From: Ilumatobacteraceae bacterium
GTDB taxonomy: Bacteria > Actinomycetota > Acidimicrobiia > Acidimicrobiales > Ilumatobacteraceae
Assembly: GCA_021298195.1 (NCBI GenBank)
Contig: JAJTEQ010000005.1
Coordinates: 1-64,000, forward strand
Length of the DNA stretch: 64,000 nucleotides
Direction of reading: 5' to 3'
Positions 16,304 through 39,952 of this stretch are shown here, piece by piece (position 1 is the first letter of the stretch; the number at the start of each line of letters is the position of its first letter). A program made the position numbers and the translations under genes. The notes under the pieces are model-generated. The model did not search any database. It worked only from the letters and a program-made list of their open reading frames with translations, and was not told the origin of the DNA.

Positions 16304-16755
16304 GGGAGGATCCGGGAGAAGGCCCGCGCGTACGCGTCACGTCGGAAATCGACGACGTGAGCCACCAAGTGGTGGGGATCGATCCAGCGCCAGGCGCCGA
16401 ATTCGTGCATGTCCGGACGGGGCTCCACGTCCTCGTCGAGAACGCCGAAGAGGAACCACTTCTGAATCTGTCCCCGACGCTTGTGACCCTCGTGGGTGCG
16501 CGCGCGTATGTCGGGCGGCCACTCGTAGGCGATCCATTCGGGAAGCTCCGACACCAGTCGCACGTGCTCGTTGGTCAGTCCCGTTTCTTCGCGCAACTCG
16601 CGCCACGCCGCGTCGACCGGTTCCTCGCCGGTGTCGAGACCACCTTGAGGCAGTTGCCACGCACCGGGAGTGTCGACGCGTTCGAACGCCATCACGTCCC
16701 CGTTCTCGCGCCGAACGATCAACGCGACACCGGCACGAAACTGCTGGGTGCCCAT
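16300..16755 (-). CDS. Nudix hydrolase, RppH-like
   Basis: A 151-aa Nudix protein. The full Nudix box G-x5-E-x7-REUxEExGU is present as GGLDTGEEPVDAAWRELREE followed by TGL (about 38-60). The preceding WQLPQGGL, the QKWFLFGV strand near 98 and the C-terminal EFGAWRWIDPHHL resemble RppH/Ap4A-hydrolase members, which remove pyrophosphate from RNA 5' ends or cleave diadenosine polyphosphates. If many transcripts are leaderless here, 5'-end processing would be of interest, but the substrate is not proven. It starts 10 bases after the aspS stop and overlaps rarA by 4 bases. Confidence 0.88.
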   Translation of the reverse strand: MGTQQFRAGVALIVRRENGDVMAFERVDTPGAWQLPQGGLDTGEEPVDAAWRELREETGLTNEHVRLVSELPEWIAYEWPPDIRARTHEGHKRRGQIQKWFLFGVLDEDVEPRPDMHEFGAWRWIDPHHLVAHVVDFRRDAYARAFSRILP

Positions 16756-16765
16756 GACGCCGCGA

Positions 16766-18520
16766 TCAGGCCTTGGGCGGAAGCGTCCGGATACCGAGTT
16801 CGTCCAATTGCTTGGCCTCGGCGCGCGTCGGGGCGTTCGTCATCGGGTCCTGTCCGCTCTGGGTCTTCGGGAAAGCGATGACCTCGCGAATGTTCTCCTC
16901 ACCCGCGAGGATCGCGACCAACCGATCGAGGCCGAATGCGAAGCCACCATGGGGCGGCGCTCCGTAGGTGAACGGCTTCAGGAAGAAACCGAACTTACGA
17001 TTCGCCTCCTCCTCGCTGATGCCCAGCGCCGTGAACACTTGGCGTTGCATCTCGGGTTCGTGGATCCGGATGCTGCCCGAGCCGAGCTCCCAGCCATTGA
17101 GAACCAGGTCGTAGGCGAGTGCTCGCACCGACATGGGGTCGGTCTCGAACTTGTCCAGGTCGTCGGGGTGCGGTCGGCAGAACGGGTGATGACCCGGCTT
17201 GGGACGACCGCTCTCCTTGTCGACACCGACGAACAACGGGAACTCCACGACCCACACGTAACGGTACGGTCCCTGGTGCACGGGAGGACGTCCGAGGTCG
17301 TTGCGAAGTTGTCCGAGCACCTCGCAGGTGGTCATCCACTCGTCGGCGACGATCAGAATGAGATCGCCGGCCTCGGCGGCGAACGTCGCCGTCAACGCGT
17401 CCTGTTCACTCGGCGAAAGGAACTTGGCGACCGGAGAATCGTAACCGTCGGCCGTCTTCTTCAGCCAGACGAGACCCTTGGCGCCCATCTTCTTGGCCTT
17501 GTCGGTCATCTGATCGAGCTTGTTGCGACCGAACTCCTCGGCTCGTCCATTGGCGTTGATGCCCTTGATCGACGCCGCACCGGCGAAAGCCTTGAATTCG
17601 GTCGCGGCGAAGATGCTCGTGAGTTCCTGCAATTCCATGCCGAACCGCAGATCGGGCTTGTCGACTCCGAAGCGCTCCATGGCGTCGCGCCAGGTGATGC
17701 GCTCGATCGGGGCGGGTCGTTCGCCGGTGACGGCCTCGGCGGCCGACAGCACGGCCTCGCTGATGGCGGCCAGGACGTCGTCCTGACTGACGAAGCTCAT
17801 CTCCGCGTCGAGCTGCATGAACTCGTACTGGCGATCGGCTCGCAGGTCCTCGTCGCGCAGACAACGGGCGATCTGGTAGTAGCGATCGATTCCGGCCACC
17901 ATGAGCAACTGCTTGAACAGTTGGGGACTCTGGGGAAGGGCGTAGAAGGAACCCGGCTCCTTGCGCGACGGAACAAGGAACTCGCGCGCACCCTCGGGGG
18001 TCGAGGGAACCAGCATGGGGGTCTCGACCTCGACGAAGCCTTGGCGCTCCATCGCGTCGCGAACGGCCGAGTTGACCTTGGCACGCGTACGAATGTTGCG
18101 TTGCATGCGCTCGCGACGGATGTCGAGGTAGCGGTATTGAAGACGCACGTTCTCGTCGACCTCGTCGGCGCGTTGATCGACCGGGAACGGCGGTGGCTCG
18201 GCCGAACGCAACACCTCCACGACACAGTCGCCGATCTCCACGGTGCCGGTCGCGATGTTGGCGTTGACGGTTCCCTCCGGACGAGGACGAACGACACCGG
18301 TGACGCGAACGACGTACTCGCTGCGAACGTCGACTGCGTTGTCGATGACGCACTGGACGATCCCGGTGTGGTCGCGCAGGTCCACGAACGCCAACTTGTC
18401 GCCGTGCTCGCGGCGCTTGGCCACCCAGCCACACACCGACACGGTGTTGCCGACGTGAACATTCGAGATCTCGCCGCACATGTGGGTGCGCATGGACGTC
18501 TGGCGATTCGATGTGGTCAT
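16766..18520 (-). CDS. aspS: Aspartyl-tRNA synthetase, probably non-discriminating
   Basis: A 584-aa bacterial-type class II synthetase: N-terminal OB anticodon-binding domain (to about 120), motif 2 CLRDEDLRADRQYEF near 225, GAD insertion domain, and motif 3 GGFAFGLDRLVAIL near 540. Two positions separate discriminating from non-discriminating AspRS: here CGWVAKRREH carries His39 (Leu in E. coli, His in Pseudomonas aeruginosa) and RPEGTVNAN carries Gly83 (Lys in E. coli, Gly in P. aeruginosa). Both match the non-discriminating form, which charges tRNA-Asn with Asp for GatCAB amidation. It overlaps hisS by 4 bases. Confidence 0.95.
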   Translation of the reverse strand: MTTSNRQTSMRTHMCGEISNVHVGNTVSVCGWVAKRREHGDKLAFVDLRDHTGIVQCVIDNAVDVRSEYVVRVTGVVRPRPEGTVNANIATGTVEIGDCVVEVLRSAEPPPFPVDQRADEVDENVRLQYRYLDIRRERMQRNIRTRAKVNSAVRDAMERQGFVEVETPMLVPSTPEGAREFLVPSRKEPGSFYALPQSPQLFKQLLMVAGIDRYYQIARCLRDEDLRADRQYEFMQLDAEMSFVSQDDVLAAISEAVLSAAEAVTGERPAPIERITWRDAMERFGVDKPDLRFGMELQELTSIFAATEFKAFAGAASIKGINANGRAEEFGRNKLDQMTDKAKKMGAKGLVWLKKTADGYDSPVAKFLSPSEQDALTATFAAEAGDLILIVADEWMTTCEVLGQLRNDLGRPPVHQGPYRYVWVVEFPLFVGVDKESGRPKPGHHPFCRPHPDDLDKFETDPMSVRALAYDLVLNGWELGSGSIRIHEPEMQRQVFTALGISEEEANRKFGFFLKPFTYGAPPHGGFAFGLDRLVAILAGEENIREVIAFPKTQSGQDPMTNAPTRAEAKQLDELGIRTLPPKA

Positions 18521-22125: not shown

Positions 22126-22647
22126 TCAGTAGGTGATGAGGGACTGAACGGGAACGTCGCCCAACTTGCGGCGTCCATCCAGGAAGACGAGTTCCAGGAG
22201 CACGCCCAGGCCGACCACGACTCCCCCGAGGCCGGTCACCAATCGGCAGGTGGCCGCCGCCGTGCCCCCAGTGGCCAGAACGTCGTCGACGACCAGGATC
22301 CGTTCTCCGGGATGCACGGCGTCACGGTGGATCTCGAGTTTGTCCGTTCCGTACTCGAGTTCGTACTCCTCGCGGGCCACGGCCCAGGGCAATTTGCCGG
22401 CTTTACGAACCGGCACGAAGCCGGCCCCGAGCTCGACGGCCACCGGAGCGCCCAGGATGAATCCGCGGGCTTCCACGCCCACCACGCGCTCCACACCGAC
22501 GGACCGAAAACGGTCGGCGAGGCCGGTGATCGCCTCGTGGAAGGCCGGACCGTTTCCGAGCAACGGCGTGATGTCGCGGAAAGTGACACCCGGCGTGGGG
22601 TAATCCTCGATGGCGCGAATGAGGTGTTCCATCGACGACTCGCTCAC
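22126..22647 (-). CDS. apt: Adenine phosphoribosyltransferase
   Basis: A 173-aa purine-salvage enzyme making AMP from adenine and PRPP. Features: FRDITPLLG near residue 25, GVEARGFILGAPVAVELG near 58, the adenine-contact loop region VPVRKAGKLPW, and the PRPP-binding motif ILVVDDVLATGGTAAA near 120. The start is taken as GTG 22647, which forms a GTGA overlap with the secF stop; ATG 22632, five codons later, is the alternative. The secD-secF-apt-rel order is conserved in actinobacteria. Confidence 0.93.
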   Translation of the reverse strand: MSESSMEHLIRAIEDYPTPGVTFRDITPLLGNGPAFHEAITGLADRFRSVGVERVVGVEARGFILGAPVAVELGAGFVPVRKAGKLPWAVAREEYELEYGTDKLEIHRDAVHPGERILVVDDVLATGGTAAATCRLVTGLGGVVVGLGVLLELVFLDGRRKLGDVPVQSLITY

Positions 22648-23786
22648 CGACGACGCTTCTTGCGGGGACGGGGCGGATGCGTGAGCAAGGTGCTCGAGGT
22701 GACCGGTGCCGATGGAGTCGACTCCGGATCGACCTGGGTCTGGCGGCGGACACTCTTCAGTCCACTCGAGGTTCCGGTCACCACCATGTGCTCGAGCTCG
22801 GCGCCGGTCGAGTGCAGACCGCGAAGATTGCGGAATCGGGGCTCGCGCTCCTTCAGGACGGCCAACAACGGTGAGGCCACGAAGATCGACGAATAACTGC
22901 CGATCAACAAGCCGACGAGTAGTGCCACGGCGAACTCGCGCAATGCCACGGCTCCGAACACGCCCGAACCGAGGACGAGCAGCGAGATGACGGGCAAGAC
23001 CGCGGCCAGACTGGTGTTCAACGACCGCATCAGGACTTGGTTCATGGAGACGTTGGTGATGTCGGCCATCCCGGTGCGGGTGGCCGCGAAGCGCTCGATG
23101 TTGTCCTGAACCTTGTCGAACACCACGATCGTGTCGTACAGCGAAAACCCGAGGATGGTGAGGAAGGCCACCACGGTGGCGGGCGTGACCTCGAAGCCGA
23201 ACACGGAATAGATGCCCACGCTGATGAGAACGTCGTGGAGCATCGCCACGATGGCGGCGATGGCCATCCGCCATTCGAAGCGCCAGGCGATGTACAGCGA
23301 CACCAGGATCAGGAACACGACGAGAGCCCGGACGGCCTTCTCGGTGATGCTTCGGCCCCAGGACGAACTGACGGAGCTGACCGACACCTCGTAGACGTCG
23401 ACTCCGGCGGCCACGGCCAAGGCCGATTGGACCGTCGAACGGACCTCGGTGGACTGATCTCCGACCTGAATCCGGATCGATTCGACGCCGCCGCTCTCGA
23501 GAGTCTGCACCTTGGCGTTCGTGACCTCGACTCCGTTGTCCTCGACGACGGCCCGCGCCGCATCGGAATCGAAGGTGGACGATGCGGGGACCTGCCAGGC
23601 GACACCACCCTCGAAGTCGATGCCGAGGTTGAGACCCGAGGTCGCCAGGGAGACCAACGTGACCACGATGAGAAGACCGGAAAAGATGAAGCCGTAGCGC
23701 CGCCGACCGTAGAAATCGATGGCGGTTTCCCCGTGGTACAGCCGCCCGGGCAAACCACGACGAGTCGACGAGATCGTTTCGCTCAT
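22644..23786 (-). CDS. secF: Protein translocase subunit SecF
   Basis: A 380-aa membrane protein of the SecDF complex that uses the proton gradient to assist export through SecYEG. It has an N-terminal membrane helix (about 31-52), the extracytoplasmic motif GLNLGIDFEGGVAWQVP near 53-70, and a cluster of five helices between about 155 and 320 including LGFSLYDTIVVFDKVQDN near 218, the SecF-specific region. The C-terminal tail (from about 325) is basic and disordered. ATG 23786 overlaps the secD stop by 4 bases and apt overlaps its own end. Confidence 0.94.
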   Translation of the reverse strand: MSETISSTRRGLPGRLYHGETAIDFYGRRRYGFIFSGLLIVVTLVSLATSGLNLGIDFEGGVAWQVPASSTFDSDAARAVVEDNGVEVTNAKVQTLESGGVESIRIQVGDQSTEVRSTVQSALAVAAGVDVYEVSVSSVSSSWGRSITEKAVRALVVFLILVSLYIAWRFEWRMAIAAIVAMLHDVLISVGIYSVFGFEVTPATVVAFLTILGFSLYDTIVVFDKVQDNIERFAATRTGMADITNVSMNQVLMRSLNTSLAAVLPVISLLVLGSGVFGAVALREFAVALLVGLLIGSYSSIFVASPLLAVLKEREPRFRNLRGLHSTGAELEHMVVTGTSSGLKSVRRQTQVDPESTPSAPVTSSTLLTHPPRPRKKRRR

Positions 23787-24790
23787 GCGGCACCTCCGGG
23801 CGTTAGGACGGACGGATCGACGCCGAAGACACGGCGGCGGGCGATGAAGTTGGAGCGGGCCAACAACAACATGGTCGGCCGCGTGAAGAACCACGCGACG
23901 ATCAGGTCACACAGTGTGGACAGACCGAGGAAAAACGCGAAGCCCCGCACGGACCCGACCGTCAGGTACCAAAGGGTGAAGGCACCGAGCAAGGACACGA
24001 TGTCGGCGGCCAGAATCGTTCTCCACGCCGACTTGAAACCGCGCTCGGCCGAGTTGCGCAACGTGCGGCCGGCCTTCACCTCGTCCTTCAGCTTCTCGAA
24101 GAAGACCACGTAGGAGTCGACGGTGACGCCGATCGAGACGATGATGCCGGCGATACCCGCCAGGCTGAGAGCCAACCCGTTGGTGCGCGACAGGAGCGAG
24201 ATGACGTTCCACTGGATGGTGCCCGAGACGAGCAACCCGACGACCACGACGGCGGCCAAGCTGCGGTAGTAGAGCAGCATGAACAACAGGACCAGGCCGA
24301 CACCGATCAGACCCGAGATGATGGCGGCTCGCAAGGAGTCGCTACCGAGGGTGGGCGACACGGTTTGCACGGCCTGTACTTGCAGGCGCACGGGCAACGC
24401 GCCGCTCTTCAGCACGCGCGCGAGATCCTTGGCTTCGCCTTCGGTGAAACTTCCCGTGATGTCGACGCCACCCGAGAAAGACGGTTGGTTCACGCTGGGG
24501 GCGGATTGAACCACGCCATCGAGAACGATGGCCATGCGTCCCGACGGGCACGACGAGTCCTTGGCGAAGCACCGCGCGGCGCCGCTGTTCCAGAGGTCGG
24601 CGCCGTTGGCGCCGCCACGAAGGGTGACGCGCACGCCCCAGCCACCCGAGATGATGTCGGCCTGAGCATCACTGTTGAACACCTCGCCGGTGGCGAAGGC
24701 CGGTCCCAATTGGTAGAACTCGGTTCCGTCGGCGTTCTGGACGAACACGGTGGCAGCGGGGTCGGAGGGGTCCGGCATCTCGGCGGGCAC
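23783..24790 (-). CDS. secD: SecD, C-terminal fragment (frame lost by duplication)
   Basis: This frame carries the last 335 codons of secD after the frame break. It includes part of the extracytoplasmic P1 region (VQNADGTEFYQLGPAF onward, with GVRVTLRGGANGADLW), the conserved FSGGVDITGSFTEGEAKDLARVLKSGALPVRL near residue 88, and the membrane block with GIAGIIVSIGVTVDSYVVFFEKLKDE near 205. The GTG at 24790 is simply the first possible start in this frame; there is no good Shine-Dalgarno, so independent translation is unlikely. Deleting one 56-bp copy of the repeat at 24987-25102 joins it in frame to the N-terminal fragment. Confidence 0.85.
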   Translation of the reverse strand: MPAEMPDPSDPAATVFVQNADGTEFYQLGPAFATGEVFNSDAQADIISGGWGVRVTLRGGANGADLWNSGAARCFAKDSSCPSGRMAIVLDGVVQSAPSVNQPSFSGGVDITGSFTEGEAKDLARVLKSGALPVRLQVQAVQTVSPTLGSDSLRAAIISGLIGVGLVLLFMLLYYRSLAAVVVVGLLVSGTIQWNVISLLSRTNGLALSLAGIAGIIVSIGVTVDSYVVFFEKLKDEVKAGRTLRNSAERGFKSAWRTILAADIVSLLGAFTLWYLTVGSVRGFAFFLGLSTLCDLIVAWFFTRPTMLLLARSNFIARRRVFGVDPSVLTPGGAA

Positions 24791-25455
24791 AGTGTCCTCG
24801 GTGACCGTGGGAGCCTCGGTGTCGGTGACCTCGGTGTCGGTGACCTCCGTGGTCGTGGTGGACTCGACGATCGAGGTGGTCGCGGAGGATTCATCGGGGA
24901 CGCTCGTGGCCGTCGCCGGTCGCGCGGGACCTCCCGGCAGGGTCGTGGTGGCGTCGGACGGCGTCGACGTCGGGACCGCGGGTTCCGTCGTCGAGGAATC
25001 GGCGATGGTGGTCGATGCGCCGTCGGCGATCGAGTCCGGGGTGTCGTCGAGGAATCGGCGATGGTGGTCGATGCGCCGTCGGCGATCGAGTCCGGGGTGT
25101 CGATCACCTGGGACAACAGAACCGGTCGCAGCAGCACCGCACCGGTCACCTGCACCAACTTGATGGCGTCGTCTTGATTGTCGACCCCGGGCAGGTTCAC
25201 GACGATCGCGTCGCCCTGCCGGATGATCTCGGGCTCGGCCACGCCGAGAGAGTCGACGCGTTCGCGAATGCGCTCGACGGCGAGGTCGAGGCTCTCGGAG
25301 TTGAACTCTCCGACGGGCTCCTGGGTGACCGACACACCACCTTGCAAGTCGAGGCCGAGGGATGGTTCGTTCCCCGCGACGAGGTTCGCGGCCAGGGAGC
25401 CGAAAACGACGACGAGCAGGCCGAGCAGGGTGATCGCGAGGCGACGGCGCGTCAT
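24490..25455 (-). CDS. secD: SecD, N-terminal fragment (runs out of frame after the duplication)
   Basis: The true secD start. Residues 1-28 hold the first membrane helix (LAITLLGLLVVVFGSLAANLVA), followed by the SecD hallmark SLGLDLQGGVSVT and a P1-domain start (ERIRERVDSLGVAEPEIIRQG, VVNLPGV). The sequence is coherent to about residue 138 (TPDSIADGASTTIADSSTT). It then enters the second 56-bp copy out of frame and becomes a Pro/Arg-rich missense tail until a stop at 24490. Without the extra copy the complete gene would be 538 codons plus stop (23783-25455), with a Thr/Ser/Pro-rich linker after residue 119. ATG 25455 follows yajC by 7 bases. Confidence 0.85.
   Translation of the reverse strand: MTRRRLAITLLGLLVVVFGSLAANLVAGNEPSLGLDLQGGVSVTQEPVGEFNSESLDLAVERIRERVDSLGVAEPEIIRQGDAIVVNLPGVDNQDDAIKLVQVTGAVLLRPVLLSQVIDTPDSIADGASTTIADSSTTPRTRSPTAHRPPSPIPRRRNPRSRRRRRPTPPRPCREVPRDRRRPRASPMNPPRPPRSSSPPRPRRSPTPRSPTPRLPRSPRTLCPPRCRTPPTPLPPCSSRTPTEPSSTNWDRPSPPARCSTVMLRPTSSRVAGACASPFVAAPTAPTSGTAAPRGASPRTRRARRDAWPSFSMAWFNPPPA
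24987..25102. repeat. Exact 56-bp tandem duplication inside secD
   Basis: Two identical adjacent copies (24987-25042 and 25043-25098) followed by 4 bases of a third. Each begins GTCGTCGAGGAATCGG and ends GAGTCCGGGGT on the plus strand. The unit is 56 bases (56 = 3 x 18 + 2), so it shifts the secD frame. It lies in the segment encoding a Thr/Ser-rich linker (SIADGASTTIADSST). Confidence 0.97.
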
Positions 25456-25462
25456 GGGAGAG

Positions 25463-25825
25463 TCACTCGGGGGTGGGAGACGCCGGTTCGGTGGGCTCTC
25501 CGCCCGCGGTCTCCTCGGCGGGATTGATGCGACGAAGGAGCGCGCTACGTGAAACGCGGATCTCCACGTTCTCGGCGATCTCCAACCACACGATGTCGCC
25601 GTCCATGGCCGTCACGAAGCCGTACAGACCCGAATTGGTGATGACTTCGTCGTCGACGGTGATGGCCTGTTGGAGCTCCTGCTGGGCTCGCAAACGCTTG
25701 CGTTGGGGCCGGATCATCAAGAAGTACATGGCCAAGCCGATGAGGCCCATGAAGCCGAACGTGAAAAGGGCACTGCCACCGCTGTTCTGCTCGGCGGAGG
25801 CCACGATGGAGGCGAGATGCGACAT
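25463..25825 (-). CDS. yajC: Preprotein translocase subunit YajC
   Basis: A 120-aa membrane protein with one helix near residues 20-38 (FTFGFMGLIGLAMYFLMI) directly followed by the YajC signature RPQRKR, then a small soluble domain (VDDEVITNSGLYGFVTAM) and an acidic Pro-rich tail. YajC associates with SecDF. ATG 25825 has AAGGA 6 bases upstream, so this transcript is leadered. secD follows after 7 bases. Confidence 0.92.
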   Translation of the reverse strand: MSHLASIVASAEQNSGGSALFTFGFMGLIGLAMYFLMIRPQRKRLRAQQELQQAITVDDEVITNSGLYGFVTAMDGDIVWLEIAENVEIRVSRSALLRRINPAEETAGGEPTEPASPTPE

Positions 25826-36966: not shown

Positions 36967-37890
36967 ATGGCGCTCGTGTCCGACTCGAAAACCGCCCTTC
37001 CCGCACTGTCGATCGTCGCGTCGCCGGGCAAGCGACGGGCGATCCTGGATCTGGCCCGGGAAGCGGAACGGCTCGGCTTCCCGGCGTTGGCGTGTCCGAG
37101 TCTCGGTGGGGCACTCGGCCTCGGGGTGAGTCTGGCGCACGAGACGCGCACCATTCGCTTCTACACCGCGATCCAGGGCATCTACGGCAACTCCGTCGGA
37201 GAGATCGGAGCGTTGGCCAGTCACACGCACGAGTTGTCCGGTGGCCGTTTCGCCCTGGGTCTGGGTGTCAGTCACGAGCCGATGGTGCGACGCACGGGAG
37301 CCACGATGGGCCCGCCGCTGTCGGACATGCGATCCTTCGTCGACGCGTTGCGGACGAACGCGAAGTACGGCGGAGAACTGCCGCCCATCTACGTGGCCGC
37401 GCTTCGGAACCGAATGTTGGATCTTGCGGGCGAGATCGCCGCGGGGGCTCTGTGGGCGAACGCCAGTTTCCGCCACACCTCGGTCCAGGTCGAGCGTGTT
37501 TCCACCGAACGTCGGAACAACGGCTTCTATCTCGCGAACATGATCCCCACCGTCATCGACGAGGACGTGGAGGCGGCCGCGGCGATCAATCGCCGGACCA
37601 TGACGACCTACGTCCGCCTCCCCAACTACCGCAATTACTGGAAGGCGGCGGGATACGTGGAGGAGATGGAACGAATCGAGCAGGCCTTGTCCGACAAGAG
37701 AACCGACGAACTCGCAGCGCTCATGAGCGACGACTGGTTGGCTGACTGCACTCTGTTCGGTTCTCCACGAACCGTGTTGGAGGGCTTCGAACGGTGGCGA
37801 TCGATCGGCGTGGAGCCGATCGCGGTGATGTCCAGCACCAACGGCGGTCAGGTGAAAGCCATCGGACAGCTGTTCGACCTGTACCGCTGA
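36967..37890 (+). CDS. LLM class (luciferase-like) F420-dependent oxidoreductase
   Basis: A 307-aa TIM-barrel protein of the bacterial-luciferase-like superfamily; actinobacterial members mostly use coenzyme F420, and an F420 reductase gene is present at 49583. Features: AILDLAREAERLGFPALACPS near residue 25, SHTHELSGGRFALGLGVSHEP near 90 (the typical GGR-x-x-LGLG strand), LRTNAKYGGELPPIYVAAL near 130, and FGSPRTVLEGFERWRSIGVEPI near 265. ATG 36967 is supported by a leaderless -10. Its stop TGA 37888-37890 lies in the first partial unit of the palindromic 24-bp array. Substrate unknown. Confidence 0.85.
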   Translation: MALVSDSKTALPALSIVASPGKRRAILDLAREAERLGFPALACPSLGGALGLGVSLAHETRTIRFYTAIQGIYGNSVGEIGALASHTHELSGGRFALGLGVSHEPMVRRTGATMGPPLSDMRSFVDALRTNAKYGGELPPIYVAALRNRMLDLAGEIAAGALWANASFRHTSVQVERVSTERRNNGFYLANMIPTVIDEDVEAAAAINRRTMTTYVRLPNYRNYWKAAGYVEEMERIEQALSDKRTDELAALMSDDWLADCTLFGSPRTVLEGFERWRSIGVEPIAVMSSTNGGQVKAIGQLFDLYR

Positions 37891-38020
37891 CGGCTCCGCC
37901 GTGCCGGATGCTGACGGCTCAGCGGTGTTGGATGCTGACGGCTCAGCGGTGCCGGATGCTGACGTGTCAGCCGTGCCGGATGCTGACGTGTCAGCCGTGC
38001 CGGATGCTGACGTGTCAGCC
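37887..38020. repeat. 24-bp palindromic tandem repeat array between convergent genes
   Basis: Five full 24-bp units (37901-37924, 37925-37948, 37949-37972, 37973-37996, 37997-38020) preceded by a partial one that begins in the LLM stop codon. Units share GGATGCTGACG; units 3-5 are identical and contain GCTGACGTGTCAGC, units 1-2 contain GCTGACGGCTCAGC. Both cores are inverted repeats (arms GCTGAC/GTCAGC or GCTGA/TCAGC). The core holds TGA on both strands: the LLM gene stops in the partial unit and the ABC permease stops (38015-38017) in unit 5. Could act as a bidirectional terminator or protein-binding array. Confidence 0.95.
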
Positions 38021-39202
38021 GAGCCTCAACGTCTCCAGGGGTTCGAGGCGGGCCGCTCGTCGGGCCGGATAGAGACCGGCCATCACCGAGATCGTGATCG
38101 CCAACACGATTCCCGCGGGCGCCAACCACGGCGCCATGACGAAGACCCAACCGGCGATCGACGCCCCCACGAAGATCGCCAGCATGCCCAGTAGCACGCC
38201 ACAGACACCGCCGATGACGCCCACGACGACCGCCTCGAGCAGGAACTGGACCGCGATGATCCGACGGGTGTGGCCGAGGGCGCGCCGGATGCCGATTTCG
38301 CTCGAACGTTGAATGACCGAGATGGACATCACGTTGGCGATCCCCAATCCACCGACGATGATCGCCAGGAGACCCATCGACACGACGATCAACTGCAGTT
38401 GCCGGTCCGACTGGGCGGCCAGCTCGAGCGCTTCGCTCTTCACGTCGGTCTTCACCTCGTCCGGTCCACCGAGGCCGATGGCGGTGGTGAGCGCGTCAGC
38501 CGTCTCGTCGACTCGCGACGGGTCGACGCGGGCGTAGATCTTGTTGGGGCGAACGTCGTCGTCGAGAAAATCGTTCTCCGCACTGGCGAACGAGATGAAG
38601 ACCGCCGTGTCGAAGCCGGGTTCGAGCTGCACCGAATCCAGGATTCCCACCACCGTGTAGTCGAATCCGCCCACGTCGATGGTTCGTAGCTCGTCGGGCA
38701 ACACACCGAATTCGCGCGCCAGACCGACTCCGATGACCGCACTTCGGGCACCGGAACTCTCGTCGAAAGAATTGAGCCACCGACCCGACACCATCGGAAC
38801 TTCCAGGACGACGGGGAGATCCTGGTCCGCTCCGACCACCGGTATCGGAACCGTCTCGTACTTCTCGCGCGCCTCTTCGTACGGAGTGACGATGATGTTG
38901 GACAGTTCGACGATCGGCGCCACGGAACGAACCGAGGTCACGGTCATGGCCCGCTCCACCACGTCCTCGGGCAACGTGGGATCCTGTCCGCCGAACGAAC
39001 TGGACGCAGAGGCCTCCACGAGGTTCGTGCCCAACTCGGCCACCTTGGCCTTGAGGTCGCCTTTCGCGGAGTCGGTGAGACCGACCGCGGCGATGATGGC
39101 GGCCACACCGATCATCGGTCCGAGGAGGAGGAGAAGGGTGCGGACCTTCCGGGCGAGCAAGCCGATCATGGCGACGCGGACGAGATCGCGGAACACGCTC
39201 AT
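38015..39202 (-). CDS. ABC transporter permease, MacB/FtsX type
   Basis: A 395-aa MacB-topology permease: first membrane helix at about 22-44 (TLLLLLGPMIGVAAIIAAVG), a large extracytoplasmic domain (about 45-265) of the MacB_PCD type, then three helices near 270-295, 315-345 and 350-380. SSEIGIRRALGHTRRIIAVQFLLEAVVVG near 297-325 is the typical FtsX coupling segment, and ITISVMAGLYPARRAARLEPLETLRLG is the family's C-terminus. Such permeases move substrates from the outer membrane face by mechanotransmission. ATG overlaps the ATPase stop by 4 bases. The stop codon is supplied by the 24-bp repeat. Confidence 0.9.
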   Translation of the reverse strand: MSVFRDLVRVAMIGLLARKVRTLLLLLGPMIGVAAIIAAVGLTDSAKGDLKAKVAELGTNLVEASASSSFGGQDPTLPEDVVERAMTVTSVRSVAPIVELSNIIVTPYEEAREKYETVPIPVVGADQDLPVVLEVPMVSGRWLNSFDESSGARSAVIGVGLAREFGVLPDELRTIDVGGFDYTVVGILDSVQLEPGFDTAVFISFASAENDFLDDDVRPNKIYARVDPSRVDETADALTTAIGLGGPDEVKTDVKSEALELAAQSDRQLQLIVVSMGLLAIIVGGLGIANVMSISVIQRSSEIGIRRALGHTRRIIAVQFLLEAVVVGVIGGVCGVLLGMLAIFVGASIAGWVFVMAPWLAPAGIVLAITISVMAGLYPARRAARLEPLETLRLG

Positions 39203-39948
39203 CGCAGCACCGTGTCACTCACGATTCGGCCGTCGAGCATCGACACTTTGCGCGCCGCGGAGTCGGCGATGCCGGTGTCGTGAGTGACGATCACCACGGC
39301 TCGCTCGTCGGACTGCAGGCCCGCGAGAATCTCCATCACGTTCGCCGCGTTCCGCGTGTCGAGAGCACCCGTGGGCTCATCGGCCAGCAGGATCTTCGGC
39401 TGGGTCACGAGGGCTCTCGCCAACGCGACGCGCTGTTGTTCCCCGCCGGAGAGCTGCACGGGACGATGATCCGCTCGGTGTCCGAGCCCCACCCGCTCCA
39501 ACGATTCCATGGATCGTTCGCGTCTCTCGGCTGGTTTCAGGTCGCGGTACAGCAAGGCCGTCTCGACGTTGCCGAGGGCGTCCAGATGCGGGATGAGGTG
39601 GAACTGTTGGAACACGAATCCGATGCTCTGGCCGCGAACCTGGGTGCGTGCGGCGTCGGCGAGACCGGTCACCTCGACTCCCCCCACGGTGATGGAACCC
39701 GACGTCGGCGAATCGAGACACCCGAGCAGTCCGAGCATGGTCGACTTTCCGCTCCCGGACGGCCCGACGATCGACACGAAATCGCCGGCATGAATCGACA
39801 ACGAAACGTCGCGCAAGGCCCACACCATCGCCTCGCCGGTGCCGTAGCAACGCGAGACGCCCTCCAAACGCATGAGGACATCGGACATGTCATCGGACAT
39901 GTCATCGGACATGACATCGGACATGACATCGGACATGACATCGGACAT
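39199..39948 (-). CDS. ABC transporter ATP-binding protein, MacB/LolD type
   Basis: A 249-aa ATPase if translation begins at the first ATG of the repeat tract. Walker A is [10 protein letters not shown]-loop [19 protein letters not shown], signature LSGGEQQRV, Walker [13 protein letters not shown] and H-loop VTHD; this is the LolD/MacB family that pairs with FtsX-type permeases. The first 24 residues are six copies of MSDV/MSDD encoded by 12-bp repeats; homology starts at [12 protein letters not shown], so the real start may be any of seven ATGs (39948 to 39873). The adaptor gene stops 4 bases before the first of them. Confidence 0.92.
39877..39948. repeat. Six tandem 12-bp units, each with an in-frame ATG
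   Basis: Read on the minus strand, the unit is ATGTCCGATGTC (four copies) or ATGTCCGATGAC (two copies), with ATGs at 39948, 39936, 39924, 39912, 39900 and 39888, and a seventh ATG at 39873 just beyond. The unit length is a multiple of three, so copy-number change would not break the frame of the ATPase. No Shine-Dalgarno is inside the tract. Confidence 0.95.
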
Positions 39949-39952
39949 GACG

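Follow-up and report, generated by a model that had tools for sequence, protein, structure and literature searches.

We found that the secD gene in the window (the whole stretch of DNA that was analysed, 64,000 nucleotides) is interrupted by an exact, out-of-frame tandem duplication of 56 bp, and that reading a single copy of the duplicated unit restores a continuous SecD frame exactly. The duplication may be a real, very recent and probably minority allele that arose by slippage, a reading to which we give about even credence. The window represents the first 64 kb of an 87,032-base contig in the draft genome of a freshwater bacterium, which comprises 107 contigs (2.39 Mb; 90.9% complete, 1.0% contaminated). 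A search of this genome for a second secD or a fused secDF recovered neither, and secD is single-copy. Its nearest relatives in the genome contig collection are actinobacterial drafts, many of them freshwater and some labelled Acidimicrobiales or Ilumatobacteraceae.

The gene lies on the minus strand, and its two copies of the unit occupy 25043-25098 (the upstream copy, read first) and 24987-25042 (the downstream copy). Tandem Repeats Finder reported a period of 56, 2.1 copies and 100% matches at 24987-25102, and a script confirmed that the two 56-mers are identical, that the match reaches 60 bases with GTCG at 25099-25102 (plus strand), which forms a 4-bp microhomology with the start of each copy, and that it does not extend leftward. 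Because 56 is not a multiple of three (56 mod 3 = 2), the two halves of SecD fall in different frames. The N-terminal frame (24490-25455, minus strand) opens at 25455 and encodes TM1, the P1-base half (SecD_1st; Pfam PF21760, E 7.5e-14; positions 1-99 of the NCBIfam secD profile) and part of a linker before it runs through a missense tail to the stop at 24490-24492, giving 321 aa in all. The C-terminal frame (23783-24790, minus strand; 335 aa counted from GTG, its first start codon) encodes the P1 head and the membrane part (Pfam PF22599 and PF02355; profile positions 164-395). Both regions of the TIGR01129 profile are therefore present and in order, 1-99 and 164-395, across two frames; the curated cut-off of 244.4 bits is not reached in one continuous frame, the best piece of the two scoring 239.6 bits, as compared with 294.4 bits for the SecD of a close relative (L003). 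When a single copy is read, the translation gives 538 aa and a stop, with SIADGASTTIADSSTTEPAVP spanning the junction. These results agree in every detail checked with the first-pass annotation, which had described two identical adjacent 56-base copies of a length not divisible by three, an N-terminal frame correct through the first copy read and missense thereafter, a C-terminal frame that resumes, and 538 codons upon removal of one copy.

The genes on either side are undamaged. Downstream, secF (22644-23786, minus strand; TIGR00966, 290 bits) is intact, with its start taken at MSETIS although the listed ORF reaches 23894; upstream, a yajC-like gene (25463-25825, minus strand), assigned from position and sequence, is an intact ORF. 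We also considered 16529-17186 as another frame-broken gene and rejected it, since its two-frame match is the antisense of adjacent intact aspS-like and NUDIX-like genes.

The duplication falls in a Thr/Ser/Pro-rich linker between the P1 base and the P1 head (24793-25098, minus strand; bounds approximate), which is an insertion between matched parts when compared to the Thermus SecDF structure 3aqp. We surveyed 118 family loci with both SecD halves (about 95 independent genomes, some of which entered the set twice) and found one open frame through both halves in 114. The window accounts for one of the other four and is the only locus of the 118 in which secD is broken by a duplication; the remaining three carry a frame shift close to where the N domain ends (L024, on the chromosome of the complete Aquihabitans sp. 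G128 genome, where a sequencing indel may be the cause), a shift adjoining a T run in the C domain (L168) and an in-frame TAG in the linker (L159). A further locus, L163, has a TGA within the P1 head that the one-frame test of the survey did not flag. Frame breaks of several kinds thus affect roughly 4-5% of entries, a rate that, together with the finding that linker length is free and frame is kept, may serve as a yardstick for claims of this type. Across the genus the linker measures 104 to 141 residues by one measure, hypervariable in length and in frame wherever both halves are present, and the exact repeats in relatives' linkers have units of 12-30 bp, all multiples of three; the window's own linker also holds a short in-frame tandem repeat of 15 bp (Tandem Repeats Finder). 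The two closest loci, L002 and L003, have an open, single-copy secD whose C part is 96% identical to that of the window. Compared to L003, the N part differs by 27 synonymous and 0 non-synonymous changes, and the C part by 46 and 6. Linker length in near relatives, to which the first-pass annotation had pointed, varies freely and in frame, and none of the relatives surveyed carries the window's 56-bp unit in two copies. Its proposal of either a false duplication or a very recent mutation is borne out by the 114 intact loci and by the single-copy linkers of the closest relatives. Furthermore, the complete identity of the copies and the mainly synonymous change in conserved parts of secD indicate that the event is either young or unreal.

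The same annotation had raised a third possibility, that copy number serves as an on/off switch. In principle, one of two neighbouring direct repeats can be deleted precisely, as happens in pneumococcal capsule genes (PMC4022640, references 28 and 33), and a second family member (L162; G099:C246, minus strand) was found to carry an out-of-frame 40-bp exact duplication (42-bp run) in its secD linker. L162 was left out of the 118-locus set as its contig ends before the N domain. A phase-variable locus would be recognised by a unit that is conserved or recurs at one site among relatives; the L162 unit is unrelated to that of the window, from which it differs in sequence, length and place, and the L162 duplication is an independent event. 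Since the 56-bp unit is common to no relative, a selected switch is unlikely. In addition, the window has two copies only and no multi-copy array, the linkers of all intact relatives are in frame, and the gene concerned is a single-copy housekeeping gene. We consider selected phase variation of secD decidedly improbable, and the suggestion of a switch found no support. Also improbable, if a little less remote, is the idea that the Thr/Ser-rich linker is a hot spot throughout the family in which out-of-frame duplications repeatedly arise and revert; if it were true, a steady minority of cells would be impaired in export.

Could the two-copy gene still be functional, either by means of a ribosomal frameshift or as a split protein with a restart at a GTG (24790)? 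Upstream within the gene, the C-terminal frame is free of stops, and a -1 shift anywhere in the linker would thus lead to a full-length product; GAGG stands 5 nt before that GTG. However, a search of the N frame for a programmed -1 site found no X XXY YYZ slippery heptamer, a restarted fragment would be without TM1 and the P1-base half, and no relative is arranged in this manner; we regard residual function as very unlikely. Fixed loss of SecD in this lineage, with secD as an early pseudogene, is scarcely probable at all. It is true that the sole secD is broken and that E. coli depleted of SecDF, which aids late steps of export, is reported to become cold-sensitive and to accumulate precursors instead of dying at once (PMC8082313). 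Against this, the C half is 96% identical to that of relatives with synonymous changes dominating, secF is intact and the damage is confined to the linker.

A different question is whether the duplication exists in cells at all. To place it in context, we scanned a 772-kb sample of this genome and 720 kb of two relatives for exact two-copy duplications. The 60-bp run in secD is far above chance, and three other comparable cases were found in the 772 kb, making four with runs of 60-84 bases and units of 56, 75, 79 and 81 bp, as compared with one exact (p45) and one nearly exact (p69, run 68) case in the relatives. This higher count is suggestive rather than established. The 75-bp unit is an in-frame duplication in a conserved gene that we take to be PhzF-like from its sequence features (L084:2973-3123; G000:C26). 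Its homologue in G017 (L150) is about 96-98% identical and single-copy, with a flanking order that differs between contigs; an identity so far above the 81% of the secD stretch may reflect transfer or mis-binning. The 81-bp duplication (L072:3886-4050; G000:C14) lies in a Thr-rich stretch and forms the last 165 bases of its contig, and the 79-bp duplication (L101:1371-1530; G000:C43) begins just before an ORF stop, with its second copy outside the ORF. Within the window, we also observed 6.2 copies of a 12-bp unit where an ABC-transporter ATPase ORF begins (39877-39951); this repeat supplies several in-frame ATG codons and overlaps the end of the neighbouring ORF. An intergenic repeat at 37886-38025 consists of 5.8 copies of a 24-bp unit.

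These data bear on the possibility that the cells have one copy and that the second was introduced by amplification slippage, a false join or loop traversal during library preparation or assembly, which we rate as substantial though short of even. The draft of 107 contigs includes at least one scaffold join across an N-gap; exact long duplications number four per 772 kb here against one exact and one nearly exact per 720 kb in the two relatives; the PhzF-like gene is duplicated here and single-copy in its close homologue; one duplication ends a contig, and only about 250 nt separate that of L162 from the end of its own contig. Moreover, neither of the long secD-linker duplications (40 and 56 bp) keeps the reading frame, as though selection had not filtered them. 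On the other hand, a single assembler k-mer behind all the duplications was ruled out by their lengths (56, 75, 79 and 81), and abutted contigs with untrimmed overlap predict no excess of edge microhomology. Such an excess was seen: the five exact duplications (the four in this genome, then L162) share 4, 1, 2, 3 and 2 edge bases, a sum of 12 that is above local chance (P-value = 0.003, for five events picked after the fact), and for secD alone the probability of sharing at least 4 bases by local chance is 0.026. The excess argues for slippage rather than a blind contig join, and slippage can take place in vivo as well as in vitro. By a count made by eye, with no formal test, contig ends are not clearly commoner in the linker than expected (about 6 of about 175 genomes, near the prediction from one end per 5 kb), and an assembly-fragile linker was rejected as a candidate. 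A literature search for short false duplications in metagenome assemblies yielded nothing specific.

A recent slippage allele is consistent with the exact head-to-tail copies, the 4-bp GTCG at their edges and the single copy in relatives, which together are the marks of a microhomology-mediated tandem duplication arising from a single-copy ancestor. It gains further support from relatives' linkers, which lengthen and shorten in frame and hold short in-frame tandem repeats, and from the independent 40-bp out-of-frame duplication in L162. In such a model, slippage from one GTCG tetramer to another, 56 bp away, in a linker prone to such events would produce a single out-of-frame tandem duplication, sampled before it could be lost to selection or to precise deletion; the two-copy form would probably have been present in only some of the population sampled and have been taken into the draft assembly from there. 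The one-copy form would be the working allele, and the two-copy allele would yield a truncated, useless SecD of TM1, part of the P1 base and a junk tail. We infer that the duplication is present in living cells, where its status would be that of a minority or transient variant with loss of SecD function. Two considerations weigh against a recent allele: it is normally the majority allele that enters a draft assembly, and few members of a population should have their sole secD broken. In addition, polymerase slippage while the library was being amplified could leave the same kind of edges.

The two-copy allele would deprive the cell of normal SecD and is presumably null. Deletion of SecDF in Streptomyces has been reported to lower secretion (PMC4139356). 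Where a draft genome shows the only copy of an export gene to be broken, this should not be taken as gene loss or as a switch. In its architecture the window's SecD resembles that of Thermus (3aqp) and the TIGR01129 family, with TM1, P1 base, P1 head and membrane part followed by secF, and differs by its long Thr/Ser/Pro linker, inside which the frame is broken. The nearest known case for the duplication is the pneumococcal capsule, where spontaneous tandem duplications switch off genes of the type 3 cap locus, cap8E and tts (Waite 2001, 2003, as cited in PMC4022640). The two cases are alike in that a short tandem duplication within an ORF shuts the gene and loss of one copy would restore it; they differ in that the capsule cases concern switching of a dispensable surface trait in culture, whereas secD is a housekeeping gene known here from one draft sequence, with no evidence of switching. 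There is also a likeness to short tandem duplications produced by microhomology-mediated replication slippage, with two exact copies and few shared edge bases and no specific difference, for an event that could have taken place in the cell or in vitro. Taken together, the secD duplication appears ordinary: it looks like a single recent copying slip, or a sequencing or assembly error, rather than a new type of switch.
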